Positions 1,776 to 22,889 of a DNA stretch of 32,829 bases are shown here, one piece after another. The stretch lies in assembly GCA_002937585.1 (NCBI GenBank), contig PTKE01000018.1:1-32829 (forward strand), read 5' to 3'. The DNA is from Alphaproteobacteria bacterium MarineAlpha9_Bin6. GTDB lineage: Bacteria > Pseudomonadota > Alphaproteobacteria > UBA7887. Made by a program: the position numbers and the translations under genes. Position 1 is the stretch's first letter, and every line of letters begins with the position of its first letter. The notes under the pieces are model-generated. The model saw only the letters and a program-made list of their open reading frames with translations, did no database searches and was not told the DNA's origin.

Positions 1776-2954
1776 TTATTTTGCAAGCCGTATGCCGGCA
1801 AACAAGTAACCCGCATCGGCCAAATAGTAATTTCTGAAGGCTGGACGCTTAATTTCCACTTCGCTATGGGTGCAGCCGCCACGTAGTACGAAATGCCTGT
1901 GATCAAACCATGGCACCGAATATTCCCGATAAGGATACGCACCAAATCCAGGATAAGGATGAAAAGTATTTGCACACCATTCCCAAACCTCACCAGCCTT
2001 ATCGAGAAGGCCAGCTCGGGCAGCGGCCTCCCATTCAAATTCATGGGGAAGTCGCGCCCTCGCCCAAGAAGCGAAAGCACCTGCCTCAAAGCGGGTAACC
2101 CCGTGTACCGGTGACTTCGCAATAAAATCGGCCGAGCCATCAGAATTGATTTCAAACCAAAGACCCCCTGCATCACGTCGCCATCGTGCAGGATGGCGAA
2201 TATTCTGACGGGTAAGCCACATCCAGCCTGCTCCAGACCACCAGTTGCGAGTTTGGTAACCCCCATCTTGGATAAAAGCTAAATACTGAGCGTTGCTAAC
2301 CGGCTTTGCAGCAATATCAAACGCCGCTAACTCAACCTGCTGCCGAGGTAATTCATTGTCATAGGAAAACCCCGGATCATCGCCAATGTGATAACGCCCA
2401 GACCCCAAACGTTGGAATGAAATTATAGAATTGTCGGGAGACAACTCCGATGTCACCCTATAACCATCCATTGGCGATGCCGCATGCCAAGCTGCATTTG
2501 CCATAGATAAGATTTCCAAATGCTGCGCATGATGATGGATTAGAAAATAAATTAAATAATCATCCTGCATCATTCGCTCTCTTGCGGCTCCCGGAGGGGC
2601 CATTTTTAACATGCCTCGGTGTTCCTCCATCAGTCGCTCAGCCCAATCAACAAGTTCTTCACGTGGCGGGAGGATCTCACCACGGTCTCCCTTCGGCACT
2701 AATTCTGGCGAATAGAGATCCCGCAAGCATCTCTCTAACCCGCAGTCACCAAAGAGAGTGCTTCGGATCCACAGACACTCAACGTAAACACAATGGCCCA
2801 AGTGCCAGCCTGGAGGGCTCAGAAGCGGGTGAGGTTGCCGTCTATAATATTCTTCATCATCGATTTTTTGGGGGCAGTTTCTAGCGGCAGGGAGAATGGC
2901 CTTTATCAAGCTCGTCTGAAGAGTGGCCAAACGTTGAACTGGGGAGGTGCTCAC
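1776..2954 (-). CDS. egtB: Hercynine oxygenase / sulfoxide synthase EgtB
   Basis: A 392-residue non-haem iron enzyme expected to couple hercynine to a cysteine thiol with O2 to give the sulfoxide precursor of ergothioneine. The N-terminal DinB-like domain (about 1-170) carries the iron ligands: His51 in PPGWHLGH and the HxxxHxE set at His141, His145 and Glu147. The C-terminal half is a formylglycine-generating-enzyme/sulfatase-modifying domain, with conserved stretches around PVSNAQYLAFI, LPHEFEWEAAAR, GEVWEWCANTF and VLRGG. It is shorter than the roughly 430 residues usual for EgtB. Its ATG overlaps the egtC stop by four bases (ATGA), so the two are translationally coupled. An EgtB-like paralogue such as SenA is possible, but the egtC and egtD neighbours argue for ergothioneine. 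Confidence 0.9.
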   Translation of the reverse strand: MSTSPVQRLATLQTSLIKAILPAARNCPQKIDDEEYYRRQPHPLLSPPGWHLGHCVYVECLWIRSTLFGDCGLERCLRDLYSPELVPKGDRGEILPPREELVDWAERLMEEHRGMLKMAPPGAARERMMQDDYLIYFLIHHHAQHLEILSMANAAWHAASPMDGYRVTSELSPDNSIISFQRLGSGRYHIGDDPGFSYDNELPRQQVELAAFDIAAKPVSNAQYLAFIQDGGYQTRNWWSGAGWMWLTRQNIRHPARWRRDAGGLWFEINSDGSADFIAKSPVHGVTRFEAGAFASWARARLPHEFEWEAAARAGLLDKAGEVWEWCANTFHPYPGFGAYPYREYSVPWFDHRHFVLRGGCTHSEVEIKRPAFRNYYLADAGYLFAGIRLAK

Positions 2955-3727
2955 AGGGCAATTTGCTGTGGTCGTGAGTCCGGGGAGAGAATCACCAAAT
3001 GATGCTTAGGCACCGGCACCCATTCGCCAGACTCGCTAAACGGCTCCGAAGCAACCAGCCAGCCACCGGGAAAATGTTTTTCGTCCTGTCCTAAATAAAG
3101 GCTAGGCGGCTTATGACCGACTGCATGACGGGTTGCATAAACCTTCTTACCATCTAAGATAAGAAAATTGAATAACCCAACGTCGTTTCCCAACCATTCA
3201 TAAATTTGTTCGAACAACGTTCCTAATGCTTTGATTACATCACCATCATGTTCGGGCAGCATCTGACGCATCACTGCAAAAAGGTATTCGGAATCGGTAT
3301 TGCCATGAATATTAGCCTCGATTTCAGGTGCTAGGTACCGACGAATGGCTGGCCGCACTTTAGTTGCGAAATCGTTGATGAATCCGTTATGCGAAAATAA
3401 CAGGCGCCCGACACCATAAGGCGGAGTGTTCGCAGATGTAATCGATCCCGCGACCGTTGCACTTCTTACATTTCCCAACCAAAATTTGCTTTGTAGCACG
3501 GGGGCCAACTGAACGATATTGGGGTCGGACCATATGGGTGCTGGATTGATATAGCGCCGAGCGGTGCCATCGTCGAGGTACCAACCAATTCCAAATCCAT
3601 CTGCATTTACCTTGGCAGTGAGCGTTTCGTCGGGTAGGTAAGATTGCTCAACCAAACTATGGCTAGGCTGCAGGAGAAATTTCTCGAGACTTATCAGAGG
3701 ACCAAGATATGAAGCATGTCGACACAT
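2951..3727 (-). CDS. egtC: Class II glutamine amidotransferase EgtC
   Basis: A 258-residue Ntn-hydrolase that, in the mycobacterial pathway, removes the glutamate from gamma-glutamyl-hercynylcysteine sulfoxide. The start at 3727 gives Met-Cys-Arg-His. Removal of Met exposes Cys2 as the N-terminal nucleophile, which the family requires. An in-frame TTG four codons upstream would bury that cysteine, so I reject it. Family stretches follow: NADGFGIGWY, FSHNGFINDF, and the amidotransferase-type GNTDSEYLFAV. The gene leads the egtC-egtB pair and is divergent from egtD. Its presence implies the gamma-glutamylcysteine-dependent route, although no egtA (glutamate-cysteine ligase) is visible here. Confidence 0.92.
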   Translation of the reverse strand: MCRHASYLGPLISLEKFLLQPSHSLVEQSYLPDETLTAKVNADGFGIGWYLDDGTARRYINPAPIWSDPNIVQLAPVLQSKFWLGNVRSATVAGSITSANTPPYGVGRLLFSHNGFINDFATKVRPAIRRYLAPEIEANIHGNTDSEYLFAVMRQMLPEHDGDVIKALGTLFEQIYEWLGNDVGLFNFLILDGKKVYATRHAVGHKPPSLYLGQDEKHFPGGWLVASEPFSESGEWVPVPKHHLVILSPDSRPQQIAL

Positions 3728-3849
3728 GGGTTTTGCCAAAAAACTTTAAAATATGTTAGATCAGAGCTTGTATCGAATCCGCTAGATGTTAGCTTTATGG
3801 CGTTGATAAGCAAGATGGATTGGGCCGGAATGGCCCCTCGAAAATAGTC
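3728..3849. promoter_or_regulatory. Divergent egtC / egtD control region
   Basis: This 122-bp gap must contain the promoters for egtCB (minus) and egtD (plus). A hairpin GGGCC-GGAAT-GGCCC at 3822-3836 sits 13 bases before the egtD ATG and could affect initiation. No clear Shine-Dalgarno precedes either gene. I could not assign promoter boxes with confidence. Confidence 0.4.
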
Positions 3850-4854
3850 ATGACTAATGTGGATAGCCTGGGAAAGGCTTTGGAACAACGCTTTAGATGT
3901 GTTCGAGTTCCACCAGCAAGACATGTTCCCAGCTTGGAAGAAGACGCGCGAAATGGCCTTTTGTCACAACCGCGCTCGTTGCCGCCGAAGTATTTCTATG
4001 ATGATCACGGCTCTGAGTTGTTTGAGAGAATTTGCAAAACGTCCGAGTATTATCCGACCCGCACTGAGGATTTTTTACTGCAACAACACGCTCAGGACAT
4101 CATCCGGAGCACCCAACCGGGCAAGATTTTTGAACTAGGCAGCGGCTCCTCGACCAAGACCCAACACTTACTTGATGCATGTAATGAGATTGCGCACTTC
4201 CCATCATATACCGCGTTCGATATCTCCGAACGAGCATTACTTTTTGGTTGGGAAACACTGTCCACCCGATATGACTGGTTAGAAATCGACCTGTTCCTTG
4301 GCGATTATGAAGCCGGGTTTAAGAACATACCACGCCAGAATGGATCCAGATTGGTTGTGTTCCTTGGGAGCACCATTGGAAACTTTGAGCAAGATCGCGC
4401 TATTGGCTTTATGAACGATCTCCGAGCCAACATGTCGAATAGTGATCGTTTGTTAGTTGGCTTTGATCGGGTTAAGGATGAGCATATCCTGAACGCTGCC
4501 TATAACGATAAAGATGGTATTACGGCTGCCTTTAACTTGAACGTGCTGAATGTCTTAAACAACGAGCTCGGCGCAAATTTTGACCCCGATAAATTCAAGC
4601 ATTCCGCAAATTATGATGCGGACAAGGCACAAGTCGAAATGCATCTAGTCTCAGCTTGCACACATCGCGTCACGTTCAACACCCTGGCCACCTCCATAGA
4701 GATCGACGCAGGTGAAAGCATTTGCACTGAGATCAGCAGGAAATTTACGACCAAATCTTTAGCTAATTTACTTGGACAGGCCGGTTTTGCGATTGAACAG
4801 GATTTCATCTCGGCCGATGGTTACTTTTCTTTGGTGCTGGCTTACCCAGTCTGA
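3850..4854 (+). CDS. egtD: L-histidine N(alpha)-methyltransferase EgtD
   Basis: A 334-residue SAM-dependent enzyme that trimethylates histidine to hercynine, the first ergothioneine step. Family signatures are dense: PPKYFYDDHGSELFERI and YYPTRTE near the N-terminus, the SAM-binding loop ELGSGSSTKT, YTAFDIS, VVFLGSTIGNF, GFDRVKD with AYND and FNLNVLNVLN for substrate binding, and ISRKFTTKSLANLLGQAGF near the end. I use the ATG at 3850. A TTG at 3820 in the same frame would add ten residues with no family support. The antiporter operon begins only 28 bases after its stop, so read-through transcription is plausible. Confidence 0.95.
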   Translation: MTNVDSLGKALEQRFRCVRVPPARHVPSLEEDARNGLLSQPRSLPPKYFYDDHGSELFERICKTSEYYPTRTEDFLLQQHAQDIIRSTQPGKIFELGSGSSTKTQHLLDACNEIAHFPSYTAFDISERALLFGWETLSTRYDWLEIDLFLGDYEAGFKNIPRQNGSRLVVFLGSTIGNFEQDRAIGFMNDLRANMSNSDRLLVGFDRVKDEHILNAAYNDKDGITAAFNLNVLNVLNNELGANFDPDKFKHSANYDADKAQVEMHLVSACTHRVTFNTLATSIEIDAGESICTEISRKFTTKSLANLLGQAGFAIEQDFISADGYFSLVLAYPV

Positions 4855-4882: not shown

Positions 4883-5461
4883 ATGCAGTTGCCCATTGGC
4901 GACTCGGTCACCTTCAGGCATACTCCGCGCCCAACACCGGCAATGCTCGGAATGATTCAATCTAACTGGGGCGGAGCAACTCCCTTGCGCCACAGCATTT
5001 CCTTATTTTTTGTCCTGAGTGGTACCTGGTTGTTATTGTCTGGTCATTTAGAGGCATTACCTCTGATCCTAGGCGCAATATCCTGCTTGTTCGTCATCTA
5101 TTTAGCGCGACGAATGGACGTTATCGATGGTGAAAGCCACCCAATCCACCTGGGTTTTCGATTGCCTGGCTACTGGTTTTGGCTGGGCTGGCAAATATTT
5201 AAGGCTAACTTTGACGTGGCACGTCGAATCCTTGATCCCAGGATGCCAATTGAACCACACTTGTTTGAACTTGAACCCAAGCAATCGAGTGACCTCGGCC
5301 GGGTGATTTACGCTAATTCAATTACCCTCACACCAGGAACCGTGACCACAGATTTGAGCACCGACCGCATCCAAGTTCATGCCCTCAGCGACAAGGCTGA
5401 GAGAGAGCTTCGTGGAGGAGAAATGGCTGCGAAAATCGCGGAACTGGAGATATCCCCGTGA
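4883..5461 (+). CDS. mrpE: Na+/H+ antiporter subunit E (MrpE/MnhE)
   Basis: The accessory E subunit of a Mrp-type cation/proton antiporter, 192 residues as called. The family is usually about 160, so the true start may be the internal ATG at 4943 or 4952, which removes an unconserved leader. The recognisable part starts at SLFFVLSGTWLLLSG, with membrane segments near the N-terminus. Further family stretches are FWLGWQIFKANFDVARRIL, then YANSITLTPGTVTTDL and the cytosolic C-terminus. The stop overlaps the GTG of mrpF (GTGA), so it is the first gene of a coupled operon. The E subunit helps assemble the complex rather than transporting ions. Confidence 0.9.
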   Translation: MQLPIGDSVTFRHTPRPTPAMLGMIQSNWGGATPLRHSISLFFVLSGTWLLLSGHLEALPLILGAISCLFVIYLARRMDVIDGESHPIHLGFRLPGYWFWLGWQIFKANFDVARRILDPRMPIEPHLFELEPKQSSDLGRVIYANSITLTPGTVTTDLSTDRIQVHALSDKAERELRGGEMAAKIAELEISP

Positions 5462-5745
5462 CCTCCTCGTTTGCAATGGTGGGAGCGGCGCTATTATTTG
5501 CCATGGCACTCACCGTAGCACGCGCAGTGGCCGGCCCAACGCTGTTCGACCGGATTCTTGCTGCCAATAGCTTCGGCACCAAAACAGTATTGTTGCTTTC
5601 AATCCTTGGTTTTATTGCAGGGCGACCGCACTTTCTCGACCTGGCCTTAGTGTATGCATTGATCAATTTTCTCGGCGTGATTGCGGCTTTGAAGCTTATT
5701 AAATTTGGTCGTTTTTCTGATCCAGATCCACCAATAAGCGCATGA
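5458..5745 (+). CDS. mrpF: Na+/H+ antiporter subunit F (MrpF/MnhF)
   Basis: A 95-residue membrane subunit with three hydrophobic helices and the family core ARAVAGPTLFDRILAANSFG (residues about 21-40), followed by LDLALVYALINFLGVIA. It starts with GTG in a four-base overlap with mrpE and itself overlaps mrpG by four bases (ATGA). MrpF is needed for assembly and activity of the antiporter, and also for efflux functions in some homologues. Confidence 0.93.
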   Translation: MTSSFAMVGAALLFAMALTVARAVAGPTLFDRILAANSFGTKTVLLLSILGFIAGRPHFLDLALVYALINFLGVIAALKLIKFGRFSDPDPPISA

Positions 5746-6098
5746 TACTTGCTCTCGACATACTGAGTTGGATTTTATTAGGAACGGGAACCATATTTTT
5801 ACTGATTGGCAGCGTCGGACTGATTCGACTGCCGGATTTTTACACCCGGATGCACGCAGCCGGATTAATTGACACGTTAGGCGCAGGCCTCATTCTTACG
5901 GGCTTGATGGTCGAGGCCGGCTGGTCACTGAATCTCGCCAAGCTCGCCATGATTGTGTTGTTTTTGCTTTTTACCAGCCCAACATCCACTCACGCGCTCG
6001 CACACGCAGCCTTGGTGCACGGCCTCAAGCCGTGGCAAAGTGTGAAAGACGATAGGCAGTCTCATAAAATGGTGGGAGATAAACCATCGAGCCCTTAA
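5742..6098 (+). CDS. mrpG: Na+/H+ antiporter subunit G (MrpG/MnhG)
   Basis: A 118-residue membrane subunit. The characteristic GSVGLIRLPDFYTRMHAAGLIDTLG (about residues 23-47) and the following hydrophobic helices, ending in FTSPTSTHALAHAA, identify it. It overlaps mrpF by four bases. Its C-terminus overlaps the probable start of the next gene by 13 bases, keeping the operon coupled. Confidence 0.94.
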   Translation: MILALDILSWILLGTGTIFLLIGSVGLIRLPDFYTRMHAAGLIDTLGAGLILTGLMVEAGWSLNLAKLAMIVLFLLFTSPTSTHALAHAALVHGLKPWQSVKDDRQSHKMVGDKPSSP

Positions 6099-6619
6099 TT
6101 GGAATCGGCCTATTGCTGTTTCTGCTACTAACCGCAGCCGCTATCGTTTGGGTCCGAAATCTATTTGCCGTGGTGATACTTAGCGGCGTTTACAGCCTGT
6201 TAATGGCTGGGACTTTCACGATTCTTGATGCGGTTGATGTGGCTTTTACCGAGGCAGCGGTGGGTGCCGGCATCAGCACGGTGTTGCTCCTTGCCACCCT
6301 GGCTCTCGTAGGCCAGGAAGATCATGGGCAACATCGACGAGCTCTGGGCCCGATCGCGATAGTAGCGTTGGCAGGCGCCATGCTGATTTACGCAGTACCT
6401 GACATGCCTAGATTTGGCAGCCCGGAAGCACCAATTCATGTTCATGTGGCACCGCGTTACATCGAGGAAACACCCAATGCGATCGGTATTCCAAACGTAG
6501 TAACTGCAGTCCTCGCCGATTACCGCAGCTTCGATACTCTGGGCGAGGTAACTGTAATCTTCACTGCTGGCATTGGCGTGCTCCTTTTGCTCGCTGGCAA
6601 GCGGAGAAAACGAAAATGA
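6086..6619 (+). CDS. DUF4040 antiporter subunit (MrpA C-terminal / MbhD-MbhE type)
   Basis: A membrane subunit matching the detached C-terminal portion of MrpA, comparable to MbhD plus MbhE of membrane-bound hydrogenases. The N-terminal half has the DUF4040 pattern: VRNLFAVVILSGVYSLLMAG, then DVAFTEAAVGAGISTVLLL with its conserved acidic residues. The C-terminal half has the MbhE-like VLADYRSFDTLGEVTVIFTA. The start is unusual. The frame is closed by TAA at 6080-6082 and offers no ATG or GTG before the first helix. A good Shine-Dalgarno (GGGAG, 6074-6078) lies seven bases before an ATC at 6086, giving a natural N-terminus (xEPLIGIG). The first conventional alternative is TTG at 6113, which lacks such a site. 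Its stop overlaps mrpB by four bases. Confidence 0.85.
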   Translation: MEPLIGIGLLLFLLLTAAAIVWVRNLFAVVILSGVYSLLMAGTFTILDAVDVAFTEAAVGAGISTVLLLATLALVGQEDHGQHRRALGPIAIVALAGAMLIYAVPDMPRFGSPEAPIHVHVAPRYIEETPNAIGIPNVVTAVLADYRSFDTLGEVTVIFTAGIGVLLLLAGKRRKRK

Positions 6620-7062
6620 ACGAACACTTAATTCTCCGCGTAGTCATCAAGTTTCTTATTCCCTTCATTCTTCTTTTTGCGCTTTACGTTCAGGCTCACG
6701 GCGACTATGGACCGGGAGGAGGGTTTCAGGCAGGCGTAATTTTTTCGGCTGGCCTCATTCTTTACGGCATGGTTTTTGGCTTGCAACGACTACGTAAGGT
6801 AGCGCCCCCTAAACTGGTTCTGACATTTATCGCGATTGGTCTGTTGCTTTATGCCGGAGTAGGCTTTGTAACTATGTTGCTCGGCGGAACGTTTCTCGAT
6901 TACGGGTACCTCGCCGATATCTCCACCCACGGTCATCACTACGGCATTATCCTGATTGAACTTGGCGTTGGAATCACTGTGGCATCGGTGATGATTGCTA
7001 TCTTTCAAACCTTCACCGAGCGCACTGAGGAAAACACGGACAGAAATGTCGGCACTCGGTAA
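6616..7062 (+). CDS. mrpB: Na+/H+ antiporter subunit B (MrpB/MnhB)
   Basis: A 148-residue, four-helix MnhB-family protein. Typical stretches are LFALYVQAHGDYGPGGGFQAGVIF (residues about 20-43) and the late helix after HGHHYGIILIELGVGITVASVMI. The ATG overlaps the previous stop (ATGA), and its 3' end overlaps mrpC by 17 bases. MrpB together with the preceding DUF4040 subunit forms the part of the complex that in MrpA-type operons is joined to subunit A. Confidence 0.93.
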   Translation: MNEHLILRVVIKFLIPFILLFALYVQAHGDYGPGGGFQAGVIFSAGLILYGMVFGLQRLRKVAPPKLVLTFIAIGLLLYAGVGFVTMLLGGTFLDYGYLADISTHGHHYGIILIELGVGITVASVMIAIFQTFTERTEENTDRNVGTR

Positions 7063-7411
7063 TTTCAATTACGTGATTGCGATCACGCTTGCCATGATTG
7101 GTTTTTACGTTCTCATCGAACGAGGAAACCTGATCAAAAAATTAGTAGGCCTGAACGTATTTCAAACCTCCGTTTTCCTTCTTTACATCTCAATGGGGAA
7201 AATTGAGGGAGGCACCCCACCAATTCATTATGACGGTGTTGCACCTTTTTCTAACCCGTTGCCGCATGTGCTGATCCTAACCGCAATCGTAGTTGCCGTT
7301 GCTACCCTCTCTGTCGGATTAGCATTGGTGATACGAATTCGAGAGGCTTACGGCACTATTGAGGAAGATGAAATTCGCGCCCTAGATGATCAATTAGGAG
7401 ACGCCGAATGA
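7046..7411 (+). CDS. mrpC: Na+/H+ antiporter subunit C (MrpC, NuoK-like)
   Basis: A 121-residue, three-helix protein homologous to NuoK of complex I. Recognisable stretches are the N-terminal membrane helix with AMIGFYVLIERGNLIKKLVGLNVFQTSVFL and the conserved PFSNPLPHVLILTAIVVAVATLSVGLAL. I use the ATG at 7046. The same frame is open upstream, but that extension lies inside mrpB and is unlike the family. It overlaps mrpD by four bases. Confidence 0.94.
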   Translation: MSALGNFNYVIAITLAMIGFYVLIERGNLIKKLVGLNVFQTSVFLLYISMGKIEGGTPPIHYDGVAPFSNPLPHVLILTAIVVAVATLSVGLALVIRIREAYGTIEEDEIRALDDQLGDAE

Positions 7412-8895
7412 TCGGACTCAATTTAGCGGCCCTTCAGGTCGTGGTGCCTCTGATAGGGGCGCCATTGTGCACCCTCTTTGGGCGGGGAGCACGTGCATGG
7501 GTGCTGAGTACGGCACTAACTTGGTGTGCATTTGCAATCTCGATCGCGCTCTTAGTGGAGGTCCTGTGCTGTGGAACCATTAGTTATGTAATGGGAGGAT
7601 GGCTTGCCCCGTGGGGCATTGAATACCGAGTTGATTACCTCTCCGCTTTGGTGCTGTTGTTAATCACCGGGGTAGCATCTGCTGTAATGCCCTTTGCCTA
7701 TCACAGCGTCATTAGCGAAGTTTCCAGAGAAAAACACCGCCTTTTTTACACCGCCTACCTGCTTACCTTCGCTGGCTTGCTCGGCATGGTAATCACAGGC
7801 GATGCGTTTAACGCATTTGTTTTCATGGAAATCGCATCTTTATCAGCATATGTGCTGATCGGCCTTGGGCGAAACCGGCGCGCACTATATGCGAGTTTTC
7901 AGTATTTAGTCCTGGGCACGATTGGTGCAACGTTTTTTTTGATTGGGGTGGGACTGCTATACATGCTCACCGGAACACTCAACATGGTTGATCTGAGCGA
8001 ACGGTTGAGTGGTCAACACGATAATCGAGTGCTCTTTGCAGCGTTCAGTTTTCTAGTTGTCGGACTAAGTCTGAAGCTTGCACTATTTCCACTTCACCTG
8101 TGGCTACCCAACTCATACGCTTACGCACCATCGATTGTGACCGTACTACTTGCCGCGACAGGAACGAAGGTTGCTGTTTACCTCTTGCTGCGTTTCGGTT
8201 TTACAGTTTTACAAGTCAACCAGCATCACGAATTGCTATCCATCATAGATTTGTTGCTTCCGCTAGCACTCATTGGCATGTTCGCAGGATCGATAGTAGC
8301 GATATACCAAACCGACATCAAACGCCTACTAGCATACTCGAGCATTTCCCAGATAGGCTATATCCTGCTCGGCATAGCCTTGGCTTCCGAGCGCGGGTTA
8401 ATTGGAGCGATAGTACATGTGTTTAATCATGGAGTGATGAAGGCTGGGCTGTTTGTTGCAGTTGGCGCGATAGCGCTACACGCCGGCGGCTCATCAGTTA
8501 ACAATCTTGCCGGTCTTGGAAAACGTATGCCGCTAACCATGGCGGCATTTACAGTATGTGCACTTAGTTTGATCGGCATACCTGGCACTGTTGGATTCAT
8601 CAGTAAATGGTACCTCGTTCTGGCAGCATTAGAGACCGGCACGACGAGGGGCATCATTGCTGCGATTGGCGTAATCTCTGCTTCACTAGTAGCGATCATT
8701 TACGTTTGGCGTTTAGTGGAAGTTGCTTATTTTACGAACCCATCCAATGTCGAAGCATCTGTGACCGAAGCGTCTTGGCCGACATTGCTTAGCCTATGGA
8801 TACTTGCGGGCTCATGCTTAGTGTTCGGCTTGGCTACAGACCTCACGGTTGGTGTATCTCGTCTCGCAGCACGAATGCTGTTGGGTATAAGTTGA
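7408..8895 (+). CDS. mrpD: Proton-conducting antiporter subunit D, first copy
   Basis: A 495-residue polytopic protein of the proton-conducting membrane transporter family (NuoL/M/N and MrpD). It is expected to be one of the ion-translocating subunits. The conserved membrane glutamate is at about residue 141 (FMEIASLSAYVLIGLG). The family lysines follow in LKLALFPLHLWLP, TGTKVAVYLL, TDIKRLLAYSSISQIGYI and HGVMKAGLFVAVGAI. It overlaps mrpC by four bases, and its stop shares a base with the next start (TGATG). The downstream neighbours are two further paralogues. Confidence 0.95.
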   Translation: MIGLNLAALQVVVPLIGAPLCTLFGRGARAWVLSTALTWCAFAISIALLVEVLCCGTISYVMGGWLAPWGIEYRVDYLSALVLLLITGVASAVMPFAYHSVISEVSREKHRLFYTAYLLTFAGLLGMVITGDAFNAFVFMEIASLSAYVLIGLGRNRRALYASFQYLVLGTIGATFFLIGVGLLYMLTGTLNMVDLSERLSGQHDNRVLFAAFSFLVVGLSLKLALFPLHLWLPNSYAYAPSIVTVLLAATGTKVAVYLLLRFGFTVLQVNQHHELLSIIDLLLPLALIGMFAGSIVAIYQTDIKRLLAYSSISQIGYILLGIALASERGLIGAIVHVFNHGVMKAGLFVAVGAIALHAGGSSVNNLAGLGKRMPLTMAAFTVCALSLIGIPGTVGFISKWYLVLAALETGTTRGIIAAIGVISASLVAIIYVWRLVEVAYFTNPSNVEASVTEASWPTLLSLWILAGSCLVFGLATDLTVGVSRLAARMLLGIS

Positions 8896-10358
8896 TGAGC
8901 CCAAATACAGCAATCATTGTGGCTCTTGTTATTCCGTTGTTTGGCGCCCTGTTGATAGGGTTGGCGAGACGCTCGCCTAATGTCCGCGAAGGTATCACTT
9001 TGATCACGGCAGCTACCTTGTTCCTCCTGGTGCTGTCTATTACTCCCTCGGTTCTTGCCGGCGCTCGCCCATCGATTAAAATATTTGAGTTGCTACCGGG
9101 GCTCGCAATAGCTTTTGAAGTCGAACCACTCGGAATGTTGTTCGCATTGATTGCGTCCTTTCTGTGGATACCCAATTCCATCTACTCAATCGGCTATATG
9201 CGGGCACACCACGAATCTAATCAAACGCGTTACTACATTTTTTTTGCCCTCGCTTTAGCCAGCGTGATCGGGCTCGCATTTTCCGCTAATTTGGTAACCA
9301 TGTTCCTGTTCTATGAAACGTTGACCCTTAGCACCTACCCTTTGGTCACCCACAGTGGAACAGTCGAAGCAAAACGGGCGGGAAGAATTTATTTGGGCCT
9401 ATTATTGGGAACCTCGATTGGTCTTCAACTCCTCGCCATTATCGGCACCTATACGATTGCTGGAACCACTGATTTCAAGCCGGGTGGAATTCTTGCTGGA
9501 CAGGCGGGACCAGGTGTTATTGCAATTCTATTCGCTTTGTACATGTTCGGGATTGGCAAGGCCGCGTTGATGCCATTTCATCGCTGGCTTCCAGCAGCCA
9601 TGGTTGCACCAACGCCGGTATCAGCCTTCATTCATGCGGTAGCGGTTGTAAAGGGCGGCGTATTTGCCGTGCTTAAAGTGGTGGTCTATGTATTCGGCCT
9701 CGACTTGATGCAGAGCTCTCACCCCGGAGAATGGCTCATGTGGGTCGCAGCATTCACGATTCTCGTTGCCTCACTCATCGCCTTGACTAAAGACAACCTC
9801 AAAGCACGTCTCGCCTATTCCACGGTAAGTCAACTCTCCTATATCGTGCTCGGTGCAGCGTTGGCCACGAGCGCCAGTGTACTTGGCGGTGGCCTGCACA
9901 TTCTTACCCATGCCTTTGGCAAGATTACCTTATTCTTTTGCGCCGGTGCGATCATGGTCACTACCCATAAAGAAAATGTCAGCGATATGCGAGGAATTGG
10001 ACGGGCTATGCCGTTGACGATGTTTGCATTCCTAATTGGCAGTCTCAGTGTAATCGGCCTGCCGCCGTTCGCTGGCGCATGGAGCAAATGGTATCTAGCA
10101 GTAGGTGCGATGGAGGCAAACCACGCTTTTTTTGTTGCAGTGCTAATGATCAGCAGCCTGCTTAATATTGCGTATCTGATGCCCGTAGTCGTCCAGGCTT
10201 TTTTTCCGGGCGCCAATCCTACGGAGTTTGAGGATGGAATGCGCGAAGCACCGCTTGCCTGTCTTATTCCCCTTTTGCTGACTGCTACCGGATGTGTGGT
10301 CATTTTCATATATCCCGACCCGTTCCACGCCCTGCTGCAACAAGTGGTTGGGGACTAA
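8895..10358 (+). CDS. Proton-conducting antiporter subunit D-like, second copy
   Basis: A 487-residue member of the same transporter family as the preceding gene. The membrane glutamate is in FLFYETLTLSTYPLV. The conserved lysines occur in GIGKAALMPFHRWLPAAM, HAVAVVKGGVFAVLKV, TKDNLKARLAYSTVSQLSYIVLG and HAFGKITLFFCAGAI. The ATG at 8895 overlaps the previous stop by one base (TGATG). An open extension upstream lies inside mrpD and is not conserved. It may substitute for the N-terminal NuoL-like part of MrpA, which is missing from this operon, or act as an additional pumping module. Confidence 0.93.
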   Translation: MSPNTAIIVALVIPLFGALLIGLARRSPNVREGITLITAATLFLLVLSITPSVLAGARPSIKIFELLPGLAIAFEVEPLGMLFALIASFLWIPNSIYSIGYMRAHHESNQTRYYIFFALALASVIGLAFSANLVTMFLFYETLTLSTYPLVTHSGTVEAKRAGRIYLGLLLGTSIGLQLLAIIGTYTIAGTTDFKPGGILAGQAGPGVIAILFALYMFGIGKAALMPFHRWLPAAMVAPTPVSAFIHAVAVVKGGVFAVLKVVVYVFGLDLMQSSHPGEWLMWVAAFTILVASLIALTKDNLKARLAYSTVSQLSYIVLGAALATSASVLGGGLHILTHAFGKITLFFCAGAIMVTTHKENVSDMRGIGRAMPLTMFAFLIGSLSVIGLPPFAGAWSKWYLAVGAMEANHAFFVAVLMISSLLNIAYLMPVVVQAFFPGANPTEFEDGMREAPLACLIPLLLTATGCVVIFIYPDPFHALLQQVVGD

Positions 10359-16152: not shown

Positions 16153-16380
16153 TCACTCTTTGCCGCTCTCATTTAGTGGCTGAAGTAACCTGCCGAACGG
16201 ATCCCGATCAACCAGCTGTTCCATGATGGCGCGCTTCTTCTCATTGGAATAAAAAAGCCACTCCGCCACCTCCGCAGCGGAACGTCGGCATCCTTCGCAC
16301 AATTGACTACGCTGATTTATACGACAAATTCCTATACAGGGAGTGAGAACATTTACTGCGCCAGTTACCGCGCCGATCAT
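16153..16380 (-). CDS. DUF1289 four-cysteine protein
   Basis: A 75-residue protein with the DUF1289 pattern: PCIGICRI followed by CEGCRRSAAEVAEW. Cysteines are at residues 15, 19, 28 and 31. The family is widespread in Pseudomonadota and is suspected to bind a metal or Fe-S centre, but its role is not established. Its ATG overlaps the stop of the methyl-H4folate methyltransferase (ATGA), making it the last gene of the corrinoid operon. Confidence 0.85.
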   Translation of the reverse strand: MIGAVTGAVNVLTPCIGICRINQRSQLCEGCRRSAAEVAEWLFYSNEKKRAIMEQLVDRDPFGRLLQPLNESGKE

Positions 16381-17420
16381 CTTGCTTCACCAATTTCGCC
16401 TTTTCGCCATGCCGCGATGTATTTCTGACAAAACTCGTCGCGACCTAATATTACATCCTCCGCCATTTGATATGCATTGGAATCACGGTTCATACCAAAC
16501 ACCTCAACGGGATTACTAAGAACAGGGTCTATGATTCCCCCATCGGCGCCTGCCTCAACCGAGAGAATCAAGAACACCTCGTTGATCAACTTTCGGCCTG
16601 GAATTCCAAACGAAGCATTACTGATGCCACCTGTTATGTGAATATCTGGTCCGTATTTTTTTCGAAGCCCCCGAATAGCCTCAAGGCAGTGAAGGCCAAA
16701 AACCCTGTCCACCGAAGTAGGAAATACAAGAGGGTCTATAAAAAGATCACCGAGTGTAAAGCCCTTCTCAAGAGCTGCATCGACCATACGAGATGCATTT
16801 TGTACTCTCTCTTCAGCACCGTTGGGCATTCCACTTTCGCCGGCAGCGGTAACCACCACACGAGCATTGTGTTCTTGGGCCAAATCGAGGGCTTCGATAC
16901 GTTCCAGTGAGGCAGAATTGAGTAGCGGTCGAGTTGCGGCCGAATCGTAAGCCGCCAGTCCCGTTGCTATTACCTCAACGTTTGAGGAATCAATCGACAG
17001 TGGAAGCTTGGTCATCCCCTGAATTGTGGTCACCAGCCACTTAATTGCCGCCTTTTGTTCTTCAAGTTTCCAGGAAATTTCGTCAACATTTAGGTCAAGA
17101 AAATCCGCGTTCACCCTAATCTGTTTATCAACTAACTGGCGTAAATATATCAGCGCCTCATCGGACCCATCACCACCAGCCATCGCTACTTTCACCGCAA
17201 TCATGACATGCTTAATCTGTCCCTGCTGGTACTCCTGTCTTCTCTTAAAGGAATCAGGTACCGGCAAGTGGCGCTGGGCACCCGCTGAATCGGTATAAGC
17301 AACGGCCTCCCTGCCGCTATTCTCGACGATACTCTTGCCCTTGCTACGCAGCGCCCGGGTAGTGTGAATGTTCTCTCCAATGACAATCAATTCTCCGCCG
17401 GCCACCGCATCAAGCTTCAT
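16377..17420 (-). CDS. Methyltetrahydrofolate:corrinoid methyltransferase (pterin-binding)
   Basis: A 347-residue TIM-barrel protein of the pterin-binding/MeTr family that transfers methyl groups between a corrinoid protein and tetrahydrofolate. Residues expected in the folate site are visible: FLDLNVDE (Asp109, Asn111), LPLSIDSSN (Asp144), RPLLNSASLE (Asn168), and the signature TGGISNASFGIPGRKLINEVFL. It is longer than the roughly 260-residue AcsE-type enzymes because of extra sequence at about residues 25-75. I use the ATG at 17420, which has GGGAG eight bases upstream, over a TTG at 17435. In this operon it would take the methyl group from the corrinoid protein and deliver it as 5-methyl-H4folate. 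Confidence 0.9.
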   Translation of the reverse strand: MKLDAVAGGELIVIGENIHTTRALRSKGKSIVENSGREAVAYTDSAGAQRHLPVPDSFKRRQEYQQGQIKHVMIAVKVAMAGGDGSDEALIYLRQLVDKQIRVNADFLDLNVDEISWKLEEQKAAIKWLVTTIQGMTKLPLSIDSSNVEVIATGLAAYDSAATRPLLNSASLERIEALDLAQEHNARVVVTAAGESGMPNGAEERVQNASRMVDAALEKGFTLGDLFIDPLVFPTSVDRVFGLHCLEAIRGLRKKYGPDIHITGGISNASFGIPGRKLINEVFLILSVEAGADGGIIDPVLSNPVEVFGMNRDSNAYQMAEDVILGRDEFCQKYIAAWRKGEIGEAR

Positions 17421-17447
17421 GTCAGTTTCTCCCAAACTGGAACAGCA

Positions 17448-19109
17448 TCATGTGGACGCTGATTTCACATTGCAAATGCGGGAAGGCATTGGCGTAAACT
17501 GACAACCTTCGACGAAGATATCGAAGAAATCAGATGTAGATTCCAGTTCAATATGTTCAATATTTTTAATTAGCGCCCTTAGTTTTTTTCGCTGACGCCG
17601 TGACAAAAGTAGCTCGCGGGCCCCATCTATAGCAGCGTTGCCTACTTTGATAATCCGCTCAACCGAAACCGGCGCAAGAAAACCTATTGCTATGGCATTT
17701 TCAACGTCAACATAGTTCGCGAACCCGCCCGCTAGGTACAGTTTTGAAATAGACTCTGGATCAATGCCAAACTTCTGCATGACTATAAATTGACCACAAT
17801 AATTTGCTGCAGTTGCCTGAGCCAACGCACTGCCATCAGCACGCGAAAATGTAATCCCATTTTCAGGCACAACCGTAATTTCGTTTTGCCGTTTATCCGG
17901 CTGAAATACACCCTTAGGGGTCATTCGGTCATGCCGACGGAGTTCCGCTATTAAGTCAATAAGACCGGAACCACACAAGCCCTCTGGTGACACACCACCG
18001 ATCGTCACATAGTCGAAATTGCCATTCTCAGGACGGAATTTAAGCGACTCGATTGCGCCGTCGTAGCCGGGCATACCGTAAGTTACTACCCCCCCCTCAA
18101 AAGCGGGTCCAGCAGGACAAGAAGCTGCCAACATGCGCTTGGCGTTGCCGATCACAACCTCCGTATTCGTGCCAACATCAACCATCATCACCACCTCTCC
18201 CTCAACAGAGGCCATATCTATTGCAGTCAAACATGCGGCTGCATCCGCACCCACATGGCTTCCAATAAGCGGCAAGCCATACAGTCTGGTCTCACGATGG
18301 GCCCGAAGGCCCAGCTTCCAAGCATTCTCGTTTAATTCCGTAGAAGATCTTTTCCCTTCCAGATATTCATGTTCAATCAATGACTTATAGGGTTTCTGCC
18401 CGATGCTTTGTATATCGAGCCCGAACAACAGATCGCGCATACTACTGTTTCCAGCAACAATGATTTCGTAGATCGCTCGGCGAGGAAATTTCCATGCGCG
18501 CGAGAGATTTCGAATAGATCGGTTGATCGCGGTCACGATAGCTTTTTGCAGTTCACCTCTGTCGGAACCGCCATCGTATGAGATCCGATGCATCACATCA
18601 CTACCACCAAACCGCTGAGGATTTTCAAAACTTAGGCGCTCCAGACTGTCACCCGTTTCCAGATCGACGAGATCAATCACGACAGTAGTTGTGCCGAGGT
18701 CAATCGCTAGGCCGTAGAGATAGCCTCGGTACTGGTCGATGACTTTGCCATCGTAGAGAACGTCTAGCCCTCTCCGGGAAACCATTGGATCAAGGTCCAG
18801 ATGAGTTTTGTTTTGACCTAACGTGAGAATTCTTGGCTTCCGACGTAACGGTGCAAAGTGGATTTCCGTGTCGATTCTCTCTACCACCGCCTGGCACGCC
18901 AGACGATAATTTCCTCGCAGAAAAGACTCAGGCTCAGAAGCTGCGTTAAGAGCCTCCATACCACTGATTATTTCGACCACGCATTCGTGACACTTCCCGT
19001 TTCTCCCACATGAGGTTGGCACCTCTACCGCGAGATCGTCCGCGAAGTCGAAAATTGTCTTGCCCAATTCAAGAGATTGGATCCGACCGTCGTGTGAGAT
19101 CGTACTCAA
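17448..19109 (-). CDS. Corrinoid reductive activation protein ([2Fe-2S] + ASKHA/DUF4445)
   Basis: A 553-residue ATP-dependent activator that re-reduces Co(II) corrinoid to Co(I) after accidental oxidation. The N-terminal ferredoxin-like domain has the [2Fe-2S] pattern Cys34-x5-Cys40-x2-Cys43 ... Cys72. The ASKHA nucleotide-binding part begins at GLAIDLGTTTVVIDL (Asp137), with VMMVDVGTNTEVVIG and CGSGLIDLIAEL further on, and matches RACo/DUF4445 proteins. No ATG is available near the domain start. A TTG at 19109 overlaps the upstream stop (TTGA) and puts the [2Fe-2S] domain right at the N-terminus. Reading further upstream would give an unconserved leader overlapping the previous gene. Confidence 0.9.
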   Translation of the reverse strand: MSTISHDGRIQSLELGKTIFDFADDLAVEVPTSCGRNGKCHECVVEIISGMEALNAASEPESFLRGNYRLACQAVVERIDTEIHFAPLRRKPRILTLGQNKTHLDLDPMVSRRGLDVLYDGKVIDQYRGYLYGLAIDLGTTTVVIDLVDLETGDSLERLSFENPQRFGGSDVMHRISYDGGSDRGELQKAIVTAINRSIRNLSRAWKFPRRAIYEIIVAGNSSMRDLLFGLDIQSIGQKPYKSLIEHEYLEGKRSSTELNENAWKLGLRAHRETRLYGLPLIGSHVGADAAACLTAIDMASVEGEVVMMVDVGTNTEVVIGNAKRMLAASCPAGPAFEGGVVTYGMPGYDGAIESLKFRPENGNFDYVTIGGVSPEGLCGSGLIDLIAELRRHDRMTPKGVFQPDKRQNEITVVPENGITFSRADGSALAQATAANYCGQFIVMQKFGIDPESISKLYLAGGFANYVDVENAIAIGFLAPVSVERIIKVGNAAIDGARELLLSRRQRKKLRALIKNIEHIELESTSDFFDIFVEGCQFTPMPSRICNVKSAST

Positions 19110-19477
19110 TCTTTTTTGGAAATTTCGCTCGGCGGTGCTCTTCTTTCCGCAGAGACTTTCTTGATTTTTTTGATTCGAGCCTTGGCGCGACCATAAGATT
19201 CGGGGTCTGTTTCCCACGCACTTCGATAATCGAACTGTCCATCATGGAGACAAACCAGCAAGTCATCATCAGGCGACACTTTTTGATTGCGGCACTTAAA
19301 TTTTCCAGTGCAACGATCCAAACGATCACGATAGGGACAGCGAAACTTTGAAAGTTCCTCTGCGTGTCCAGCGATATCGGAAAAAATCGCGCTCAAACGG
19401 TCAATTCGTTGGCGGTGGGCCTCCGGATCAATCTTGGGCGTTGGCTTGTCCTTGATAGATCGATCAGGCTTGGACAC
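19106..19477 (-). CDS. Unrecognised four-cysteine protein in corrinoid operon
   Basis: A 123-residue soluble basic protein that I cannot assign to a named family. The middle carries cysteines at residues 47, 56, 62 and 76 (FRCPYRDRLDRCTGKFKC and LVCLHDGQFDYRSAW), suggesting a zinc or Fe-S site. The C-terminus is lysine/arginine rich. The gene starts with GTG inside the end of the corrinoid-protein gene (14-bp overlap) and its stop overlaps the activator start by four bases. It is therefore almost certainly translated with them and probably acts on the corrinoid protein or its activation. That role is inferred from position only. Confidence 0.75.
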   Translation of the reverse strand: MSKPDRSIKDKPTPKIDPEAHRQRIDRLSAIFSDIAGHAEELSKFRCPYRDRLDRCTGKFKCRNQKVSPDDDLLVCLHDGQFDYRSAWETDPESYGRAKARIKKIKKVSAERRAPPSEISKKD

Positions 19478-20213
19478 TCACAAAACCTTTCGCAACTGCC
19501 ACGCAGTCGAGCGCATCTTTGCCATATGCGTCAGCACCCATGTCATCAGCAAATTCCTGGGTGACGGGCGCACCACCAACCATGATCCTTACGTCCTCGC
19601 GCAAATCCGCATCGATAAAGGCTTCAATGGTTTTCCCCATGTTCGGCATGGTTGTGGTCAGCAACGCGGACATACCGAGTATTGGGGCTTTGTGTTCTTC
19701 TACTGCGTCGATGAACTCATCATCCGAGGTATCCACACCGAGATCAATCACGGAAAAACCGGATCCGCGCAACATCATAATACAAAGATTTTTTCCGATA
19801 TCATGCAAGTCACCCTTCACCGTTCCCATCACCACCGTGGCGAGTGGCTTAACGCCTGAAGCGGAAAGAATTGGTTCTATATAGGCCATTCCAGCCTTCA
19901 TTGCGCGTGCACAGGCAAGCACCTCGGGAACAAATATAAAGGTGTCGCGAAACTTAATTCCCACGATGCCCATACCGGAAATAAGACCATCATCCATTAT
20001 CTCAAGCGCATCTATACCCTCGCCCAACGCCTGTTTAGTCAATCGATCCACGGTACCGTCATCACCCTCAATCAACGCTGCTGCTATCTCTTGCATCAGG
20101 GGGCGAACACGCACAAACAAACCGACGTTGCGCTCGATCTCCTCCGGCCGATCCAGATATTCCTCTATTTCACGGCGAATTGTTTCGTTCGCGATATCTG
20201 TTAGCTCAGCCAT
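19464..20213 (-). CDS. Corrinoid-binding methyltransferase protein (MtbC/MttC-like)
   Basis: A 249-residue cobalamin carrier. The N-terminal helical cap (about residues 30-115) includes the IPEVLACARAM-like stretch VPEVLACARAMKAGM. The Rossmann-like B12 domain follows, with the DxHxxG motif at Asp135-Leu-His137-Asp-Ile-Gly140, whose histidine is the lower axial cobalt ligand. Further motifs are MSALLTTTM and VGGAPVTQEFADDMGADAYGKDA. It would shuttle the methyl group between the URO-D-type methyltransferase encoded seven bases upstream and the methyl-H4folate enzyme. It overlaps the following four-cysteine gene by 14 bases. Confidence 0.94.
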   Translation of the reverse strand: MAELTDIANETIRREIEEYLDRPEEIERNVGLFVRVRPLMQEIAAALIEGDDGTVDRLTKQALGEGIDALEIMDDGLISGMGIVGIKFRDTFIFVPEVLACARAMKAGMAYIEPILSASGVKPLATVVMGTVKGDLHDIGKNLCIMMLRGSGFSVIDLGVDTSDDEFIDAVEEHKAPILGMSALLTTTMPNMGKTIEAFIDADLREDVRIMVGGAPVTQEFADDMGADAYGKDALDCVAVAKGFVSVQA

Positions 20214-21285: not shown

Positions 21286-21309
21286 CTCTCCCCCCTCAAA
21301 AGCTCTAGG

Positions 21310-21957
21310 TCATTGCTGTTGTGCACTGGGAGCCGATAACATACCGCGCCCAGCTGAATCGTCCTGTTCCCGCATCGCGGCGCGGACGTTAAGCGCGCGC
21401 TTTAGCAATAGGCCAATCAGCGAATTGTGGTCATTATTGCAATCGAATACCACTGTTTGATCACTGTCCTCGACATAATCCATCTCGGCAAGTTTAACAA
21501 AACCACCGGCGATGGCGGTGATGCGGCGTGCGCGGCCATCTTCTTCACCATCGGCATTTATCCGATAAGCACCTTGTCCCAAACCGTCCACGTTGATATT
21601 GCGCTCCGTTTTCTTGTCGAAGATAAACATCGGTCGCGACTTTAATTCTGTACCTAGCTCGATCTTGCATGCTTCCAGAAATATCCGCTTACAGGCTTTC
21701 CGGTGTTGCTTCCCACATGAGAAGCGAACACAGGTACCGTCACCTACCACTGGAATCATACCACCTAACGTGATCATTGCAGCTGTAACATGGCGCAAAC
21801 ATTGGTCGACCCCGGCTCGACCAGCATAGCTGTGGACCTGGAATTCAAAACTGTCGCCGTCGCCCTGGCGCTCGTACAGCGAGATAGAAATGTCATGAAA
21901 ATGCGGATACATCGAAACCAGTTCGATCCGAATGCCAATGTCTACGAGCCGTGTCAT
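21310..21957 (-). CDS. Unrecognised first gene of corrinoid operon
   Basis: A 215-residue soluble alpha/beta-looking protein that I cannot place in a family. It lacks a signal peptide and membrane segments. Notable stretches are MYPHFHDISISLYE near the N-terminus, a region containing RFSCGKQHRKACKRIFLEACKIE (three cysteines and a histidine, about residues 80-102), and NVDGLGQGAYRINADGEEDG. It lies 24 bases upstream of the URO-D-type methyltransferase in the same orientation and is the likely operon leader. A substrate-binding, sensory or accessory enzyme role are all possible; the sequence does not decide. Confidence 0.75.
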   Translation of the reverse strand: MTRLVDIGIRIELVSMYPHFHDISISLYERQGDGDSFEFQVHSYAGRAGVDQCLRHVTAAMITLGGMIPVVGDGTCVRFSCGKQHRKACKRIFLEACKIELGTELKSRPMFIFDKKTERNINVDGLGQGAYRINADGEEDGRARRITAIAGGFVKLAEMDYVEDSDQTVVFDCNNDHNSLIGLLLKRALNVRAAMREQDDSAGRGMLSAPSAQQQ

Positions 21958-22127: not shown

Positions 22128-22889
22128 TTATATGCATCGGCCACCGTCGATTTCCAGCATTACGCCGGTAACTAGTTCGGCCTCATCAGATGCTAGATAG
22201 AGAGCTGCTGACGCAACATCACTCGGCAAGCTCAGGCGGCCTAGCGGCACAGTGGCCACAAAGCGTTTATAGGACTCATTCCGATCTCCGTCACCCAGAA
22301 AATCATCCAACATCGGCGTATCTCCGGCTACCGGGCATAGGCCGTTAACACGAATCTTGTCGGGTGCTAGTTCTAACGCAAGCGCTTTTGTCATTGGCAC
22401 CAGTGCACCTTTGGTACCATTATAAATAGCAAGATTTGGGCGAGGTCTGATTGCCGCAGTTGAAACAGTGTTGATGATAACCCCGCCCTTCCCCTGGTCT
22501 TTAAGCACAGGGACTACCTCCCGTACCCCTAAATAGATGCTCTTGACATTTACCAGGAACAGTTTGTCGAATAGTGCCTCAGGAGTTTCATGCATGGGCA
22601 TGGGCTTCATCCCCATACCCGCATTCTGGACCAAGATATCGAGACCACCATAAGCATCTAACGCAGCCCCAATCATGGCCTTGGTAGATACCGTGTCGGT
22701 TACATCTGTCCTGACGAAGGTAGCTTCACCACCGTCCGCGGTAATGTCATCAACAACTCTGCTGCCAGTCTGAGTATTTATCTCAGCGGCCACCACCCTG
22801 GCACCTTCACCCGCAAACCGTTTAGCAATGCCCTCACCGAAGCCAGACCCGGCACCGGTCACAATTGCTACCTTGCCCTCAAGTCTCAT
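22128..22889 (-). CDS. SDR-family NAD(P)-dependent oxidoreductase
   Basis: A 253-residue classical short-chain dehydrogenase. The cofactor loop is TGAGSGFGEGIA (residues 11-22), followed by VQNAGMG, a catalytic serine region NTVSTAAI and the Tyr-x-x-x-Lys pair in YNGTKGA. The C-terminus DGGRCI is typical. GGGAGG precedes its ATG. It is transcribed toward the corrinoid operon, with 170 bp between them, so it may belong to the same pathway (for example oxidising the demethylated alcohol) or have its own transcript. The substrate is unknown. The 170-bp gap showed no cobalamin-riboswitch box that I could identify. Confidence 0.9.
   Translation of the reverse strand: MRLEGKVAIVTGAGSGFGEGIAKRFAGEGARVVAAEINTQTGSRVVDDITADGGEATFVRTDVTDTVSTKAMIGAALDAYGGLDILVQNAGMGMKPMPMHETPEALFDKLFLVNVKSIYLGVREVVPVLKDQGKGGVIINTVSTAAIRPRPNLAIYNGTKGALVPMTKALALELAPDKIRVNGLCPVAGDTPMLDDFLGDGDRNESYKRFVATVPLGRLSLPSDVASAALYLASDEAELVTGVMLEIDGGRCI

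Follow-up and report, generated by a model that had tools for sequence, protein, structure and literature searches.

X215, an unnamed protein family that marks one URO-D-type corrinoid methyltransferase

The operon and its neighbours

The window, that is, the whole stretch of 32,829 nucleotides that was analysed, carries on its reverse strand an operon for corrinoid-dependent methyl transfer (Table 1). The 215-aa protein of ORF 21310-21957, for which we use the working name X215, is by gene order the first of the conserved set, followed by the URO-D methyltransferase, the corrinoid protein, a small Cys-rich protein, the RACo-type activator and the pterin methyltransferase. The initial annotation had placed X215 24 bases upstream of the URO-D gene and in the same orientation, and the open reading frames agree on both points. 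A short-chain dehydrogenase gene (22128-22889) lies on the same strand, 170 bases upstream of X215. Against its nearest named relative (L023), to which 171 of 215 residues are identical, X215 shows 28, 20 and 88 differences at the first, second and third codon positions, indicating that its reading frame is under protein selection and the gene is real. The first GTG of the RACo ORF overlaps the small gene, so the true RACo start is probably internal.

Table 1. Genes of the corrinoid operon, in window coordinates
Feature	Position	Strand	Basis
X215, unnamed 215-aa family, two predicted homologous alpha/beta repeats	21310..21957	-	ORF, ATG start
Gap between X215 and URO-D, 24 bases	21286..21309	.	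ORF list
URO-D-fold corrinoid methyltransferase, MtaA/CmuA family, His-x-Cys...Cys residues	20221..21285	-	PF01208; TIGR01463 and PRK06252 over cut-off
Corrinoid protein, B12-binding_2 + B12-binding, MtgC/MtbC-like	19464..20213	-	scores below curated cut-offs of MtgC/MtbC-like models
Small Cys-rich protein, 123 aa	19106..19477	-	no Pfam/NCBIfam match over cut-off
RACo-type reductive activator of corrinoid proteins, 2Fe-2S + ASKHA domain	17448..19217	-	PF14574, PF17651, PF00111
Pterin-binding methyltransferase, methyl-corrinoid:tetrahydrofolate side	16377..17435	-	PF00809; PRK07535 similarity below cut-off

The URO-D protein resembles MtaA, MtbA and CmuA: it scores 250.7 bits against TIGR01463 (curated cut-off 235.4), also exceeds the curated cut-off of PRK06252, and aligns to MtaA (4ay7) over residues 7-339 with the HxC motif and the later Cys in register. 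We know of no accessory protein for MtaA or MtbA. Among 78 URO-D relatives the later Cys is present in every one and HxC in 77 (76 by pattern, and L067 by eye, its preceding residue being Met), the exception being L029 with HxR. In the accessible part of PMC10418091 (Kountz and Balskus), a His-Cys-Cys site is argued to favour S or Se substrates.

Across the 52 loci with a RACo gene, the pterin enzyme is found in 29, a homocysteine S-methyltransferase in 16 and MTHFR in 24. The presence of the pterin enzyme suggests that tetrahydrofolate accepts the methyl group; neither this enzyme nor the homocysteine enzyme lies within the stretch examined in 16 of the 52, so this evidence for the acceptor does not extend to every locus. 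To judge from gene content, the pathway probably exchanges methyl groups with both the folate and the methionine pool, which is not evident in every locus, and this recalls the corrinoid protein of Ruegeria that is shared by methionine synthesis and demethylation (PMC12478193, in the part available). The small Cys-rich protein is fused to the N-terminus of RACo in 28 of the 52 loci and occurs only as a separate protein in 24 (L065 has a fused domain and a separate copy). It is the second unnamed conserved part of the operon, tied to RACo as X215 is to URO-D, and probably serves RACo as an electron-transfer or activation partner. A haem-copper oxidase match was obtained in all 33 genomes tested, that of G367 being a fragment of 79 positions only, and the hosts therefore look aerobic.

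Elsewhere in the window, Pfam identifies FGE-sulfatase plus DinB, class-II glutamine amidotransferase and histidine-specific methyltransferase genes at 1776-2954 (-), 2951-3739 (-) and 3820-4854 (+), which resemble egtB, egtC and egtD of ergothioneine synthesis. Two ORFs within 4883-10358 (+) match Na+/H+ antiporter families (MNHE, proton antiporter), and from these two scanned ORFs the region is probably an Mrp antiporter set.

The X215 family and its probable metal ligands

The initial annotation could assign X215 to no family, and this still holds after the searches. No Pfam or NCBIfam model matches it at E<=1, and neither the single protein nor a 76-row profile gave anything above chance against Pfam, NCBIfam, PHROGs or PDB sequences. 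Scanned singly against Pfam, the 76 members matched six families with one member each (best E 0.014), DUF1638 not being among the six, so that any kinship with it would be remote, and no DNA-binding family was matched in the Pfam and NCBIfam searches or these single scans. The alignment behind the profile (A2) contains 76 of 81 sequences, namely the window and 75 of 80 loci, with L024, L051, L055, L057 and L070 left out by choice; 61 of the 76 make up a smaller alignment, A3.

A scan of a genome collection (84,980 species) gave 116 X215 relatives, the best 80 of which were taken as loci. Record titles of these best 80 include Alpha- and Betaproteobacteria, Poribacteria, Latescibacterota, Gemmatimonadota, Acidobacteria and Acidimicrobiia. 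The records of most relatives are titled MAG, and none of the carriers was identified as a cultured organism. In the window's class, X215 is present in 11 of 385 genomes, its own included, and the relatives in the ten others align at 39-52% identity; this set overlaps the 80 loci (L031, L032, L058, L066 and L081 correspond to G313, G367, G081, G224 and G289), and the two are not independent. When 398 genomes sampled from the window's phylum were searched with a profile, the window's own genome was the sole match, which indicates that the family is sparse in that phylum, and the plasmid records searched gave no match. X215 is an unnamed family in apparently aerobic bacteria of several phyla.

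By comparison of its half profiles, X215 is an internal duplication, each half with one Cys-x3-His: the profiles of residues 1-104 and 105-215 align over 81 columns with a probability of 96.3 and an E of 1.8e-9, as against a maximal probability of 6.05 and an E of 0.0062 in 40 control comparisons with slices of other operon proteins. The aligned repeats cover residues about 13-96 and 105-188 and match C81/H85 to C173/H177. The AlphaFold2 model computed on the 76 rows (pLDDT 89.2, pTM 0.85) consists of two strand-plus-helix units. The profile search and structure prediction that the annotation had proposed gave no strong match to a known unrelated family. Foldseek with the whole model or its second half found no match at E<=0.001, only weak and mixed rows, and the best VIA matches, to 3va7 (Z 7.1, 95 aligned, 3.4 Å) and 5i8i (Z 5.6, 87 aligned, 4.2 Å), both stay under a Z of 8; we claim no new fold.

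C81, H85, C173 and H177 are all present in 71 of the 76 members and all absent in five, without any intermediate, which argues for one joint metal site that is dispensable while the system remains. The site is probably structural and its metal probably Zn. The five ligand-less members (L061, L063, L079, L086, L092) belong to records titled Acidobacteria, Acidobacteriota or Terriglobia, and the remaining Acidobacteria loci that were aligned (L029, L046, L089) have the complete set of ligands; the loss may have been one event in one clade. Four of the five ligand-less loci contain the six operon proteins without exception, L092 lacking only the pterin enzyme where its contig ends, and HxC...C is intact in the URO-D partner of each of the five. 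Eleven further residues are invariant (E12, Y44, R91, K98, D114, Y131, R145, R187, N190, R192, R196) and may, from their conservation, form a site.

These patterns modify what had been read from the window. The Cys/His-rich stretch at about residues 80-102 does contain C81, H85, C89 and C97, but the conserved set is C81/H85 together with C173/H177. The supposed GlnGly/Asn-rich middle is weak, with 4 Gly, 3 Asn and 1 Gln among the 35 residues 106-140. As to the proposed binding or redox role, the redox half finds no support and is unlikely, because the five members without any of the ligands still have X215, URO-D, the corrinoid protein and RACo; binding is possible, and binding to the methyltransferase is what we favour.

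Linkage of X215 to the URO-D gene

URO-D lies directly downstream of X215 in 78 of the 80 loci (the best 80 of 116 relatives), and in the two exceptions, L069 and L097, the contig ends first. Each of the 78 has a single URO-D gene in the stretch, the two cut ones having none; the X215 and URO-D stops are at most 1150 bases apart in 70 of the 78, and no fusion of the two proteins occurs in any of them. In the same 80 loci the corrinoid gene is found in 56, RACo in 52 and the pterin enzyme in 31. The ten relatives from the window's class have X215 just upstream of URO-D on the same strand and RACo and the pterin enzyme downstream without exception, and the corrinoid gene is listed in nine of them (it is unlisted in L015 and shown in the corresponding L081).

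Co-inheritance is equally tight at the level of whole genomes. The 11 of 385 class genomes with URO-D (E<=1e-30) are precisely those that carry X215. In 84 genomes from the phylum of G391 (L037, titled Poribacteria), URO-D (E<=1e-20) is present in 70 and X215 in 68, with 68 genomes having both genes, 14 neither, and G839 and G777 making up the rest. In G839 the URO-D gene is cut by a contig edge. G777 has a URO-D protein of 49% identity, and X215 is absent both from its genome and from the 12-kb region examined; X215 therefore goes with one URO-D subfamily. This relative (L174:1457-2659) adjoins an EamA-type transporter gene and provides a contrast case for what X215 adds.

The Poribacteria-titled loci separate the pair from the other genes. 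No corrinoid gene lies within the stretch examined in 22 of these 27 loci, and 13 genomes of that kind all have the corrinoid protein elsewhere (85-88% identity); in the five such regions L169-L173, RACo and a homocysteine S-methyltransferase stand alongside it in every case, apart from X215 and URO-D. With the corrinoid protein and RACo at another locus, X215 is tied to the URO-D enzyme. The suggestion that X215, if conserved beside the methyltransferase, would mark the corrinoid system is borne out by the neighbour count in a narrower form: what X215 marks is one URO-D enzyme, not the corrinoid operon in its entirety.

Mean identity over 51 loci is 80% for URO-D and for the corrinoid protein, 65% for RACo and 54% for X215. 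X215 thus evolves like an accessory, and from the value of about 80% for URO-D and the corrinoid protein the operon probably has one fixed substrate. Gene-distance correlations range from 0.78 to 0.90 for all gene pairs, so co-evolution does not single out URO-D as the partner of X215.

Possible role of X215 and relation to known systems

The explanation we favour, with moderate confidence, makes X215 a non-catalytic subunit dedicated to the adjoining URO-D methyltransferase, which would act on an S- or Se-methyl substrate; the complex, the substrate class and the direction of methyl flow are what we infer. It draws on the tie of X215 to URO-D where the rest of the system lies elsewhere, on its faster divergence and on its dispensable metal site. 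The URO-D enzyme, with its His-x-Cys...Cys zinc site, would take the methyl group off a substrate of the soft-atom kind (S- or Se-methyl) and hand it to the corrinoid, as Co(I), of the neighbouring protein, and the pterin-binding enzyme would pass it on to tetrahydrofolate; in other genomes a homocysteine methyltransferase is encoded next to the pterin-binding enzyme or in its absence. RACo and the small Cys-rich protein would rescue oxidised corrinoid. X215 itself, two alpha/beta repeats presumably held together by the one C2H2 site, would most likely bind the URO-D methyltransferase and either take part in forming or gating the substrate site of that enzyme or provide a dock for the corrinoid protein. 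No structural match accounting for a docking role was obtained by Foldseek or VIA with the whole model or the second half.

X215 could also play a larger part: as one half of a two-protein methyltransferase I, the substrate-specific or catalytic one, it would bind the methyl donor and present it to the URO-D barrel. This would explain the strict pairing and why so many charged and aromatic residues away from the metal site are invariant. We regard it as doubtful, because X215 diverges faster than URO-D and because, to our knowledge, the known URO-D methyltransferases bind their substrates unaided by a second protein. Delivery of zinc is another conceivable task, X215 being then a metallochaperone that loads the URO-D zinc site via its own Cys2His2 site: the four conserved Cys/His behave as a single site, the partner has zinc-type ligands, and a CobW-type GTPase gene stands directly downstream of the operon in one locus, L031. 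The five ligand-less members with an intact HxC...C in their URO-D partner speak against it, and we hold it to be decidedly unlikely. That X215 regulates the system, transcriptionally or post-translationally, is highly improbable. Its first place in the gene set and its size and alpha/beta fold would allow this, but it matches no DNA-binding family in Pfam, it accompanies URO-D where the corrinoid genes lie elsewhere, and another regulator, of the GntR/FCD type, is present in 25 of the 80 loci (best 80 of 116), on the opposite strand in 21 of 23 loci of one count.

The operon could also be mainly a split methionine synthase, in which X215 helps URO-D to methylate homocysteine from methyl-tetrahydrofolate. 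HxC...C would fit a thiol acceptor, the homocysteine S-methyltransferase and MTHFR counts of the RACo loci agree with such a role, and the shared Ruegeria corrinoid protein offers a parallel. The B12-activation domain of MetH is unmatched in 9 of 33 genomes, and G397 (L061) has neither this domain nor a PF01717 match. The L061 operon includes the pterin enzyme and MTHFR, and the methionine route of G397 may run through it. Yet the MetH domain is matched in the window's genome and in 23 of the 32 others (15 strong matches and 9 weaker ones at 1e-32 to 1e-48), PF01717 is matched in 30 of 33 genomes, although this model is broad and many of its matches need not be MetE proper, and URO-D is retained in all 16 loci with the homocysteine enzyme. 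We consider this reading unlikely, and methionine synthesis as the sole role is disfavoured, since most of the 33 genomes have matches to the MetH domain and to MetE-like proteins.

On the substrate itself the genomes give few clues. The genes flanking the alphaproteobacterial loci (hydrolase, thioesterase, MazG and others) vary and give none. Methanethiol oxidase (PF05694) is not enriched, with one match in 11 operon genomes versus 28 in 374 others, and so lends no support to dimethyl sulfide or methanethiol. Dimethyl sulfide is an attractive idea because an aerobic methyltransferase for it was suggested but not identified in PMC6548844, as far as its accessible part goes. In the boldest version, X215 and URO-D would together make up methyltransferase I, and no earlier corrinoid methyltransferase of the URO-D type would have had an obligate second subunit. 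With this two-protein enzyme, aerobic marine, soil and sponge-associated bacteria would demethylate an S- or Se-methyl compound, and it would be a candidate for the aerobic methyltransferase for thioethers (dimethyl-sulfide-type) that has long been missing; we offer this as speculation that is rather improbable.

The operon is a variant of the known three-component corrinoid methyltransferases and includes two conserved proteins of unnamed families, X215 and the small Cys-rich protein. In the Cmu chloromethane system, CmuA is both methyltransferase I and corrinoid protein (PMC13222342, accessible part), whereas the window has separate genes for the two. The available portion of PMC10418091 describes type 1 mlp clusters of obligate anaerobes, with at least two Mlps (Mlp2 and Mlp3) and proposed S/Se-methyl substrates. 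Like the window operon, they bring together an SCMT-like URO-D enzyme with His-Cys-Cys, a corrinoid protein and a reductive activator. They differ in having at least two URO-D proteins per cluster where the window has one gene, in being described without a tetrahydrofolate methylase where the window has a pterin methyltransferase and X215, and in their anaerobic hosts, all 33 X215 genomes tested having a haem-copper oxidase match.

The marine glycine betaine system MtgBCD, as presented in the part of PMC12478193 at hand, likewise belongs to aerobic marine bacteria and has separate corrinoid and pterin proteins; it combines the activator RamA with a small DUF1638 protein of no known function, much as the window operon has an activator and a small protein. 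Its methyltransferase I, however, is MtgB (pfam06253, MttB-type) and not a URO-D protein, and the Pfam scan of the window's operon genes gave no PF06253 match. The O-demethylases MtvB/OdmB/VdmB and the chloromethane system CdmBCA share with the window a URO-D-fold methyltransferase I, a corrinoid protein, a methyltransferase II and an activator, but CdmB is zinc-free whereas the window's URO-D has the His-x-Cys...Cys zinc-site residues, and the accessible text of PMC13222342 makes no mention of an X215-like protein for either (PMC13222342).

In several phyla, then, hosts that possess aerobic oxidases carry this corrinoid pathway of methyl transfer. X215 is a precise genomic marker for the URO-D enzyme of the pathway; X215 and the small Cys-rich protein are two unnamed families that extend corrinoid biochemistry.
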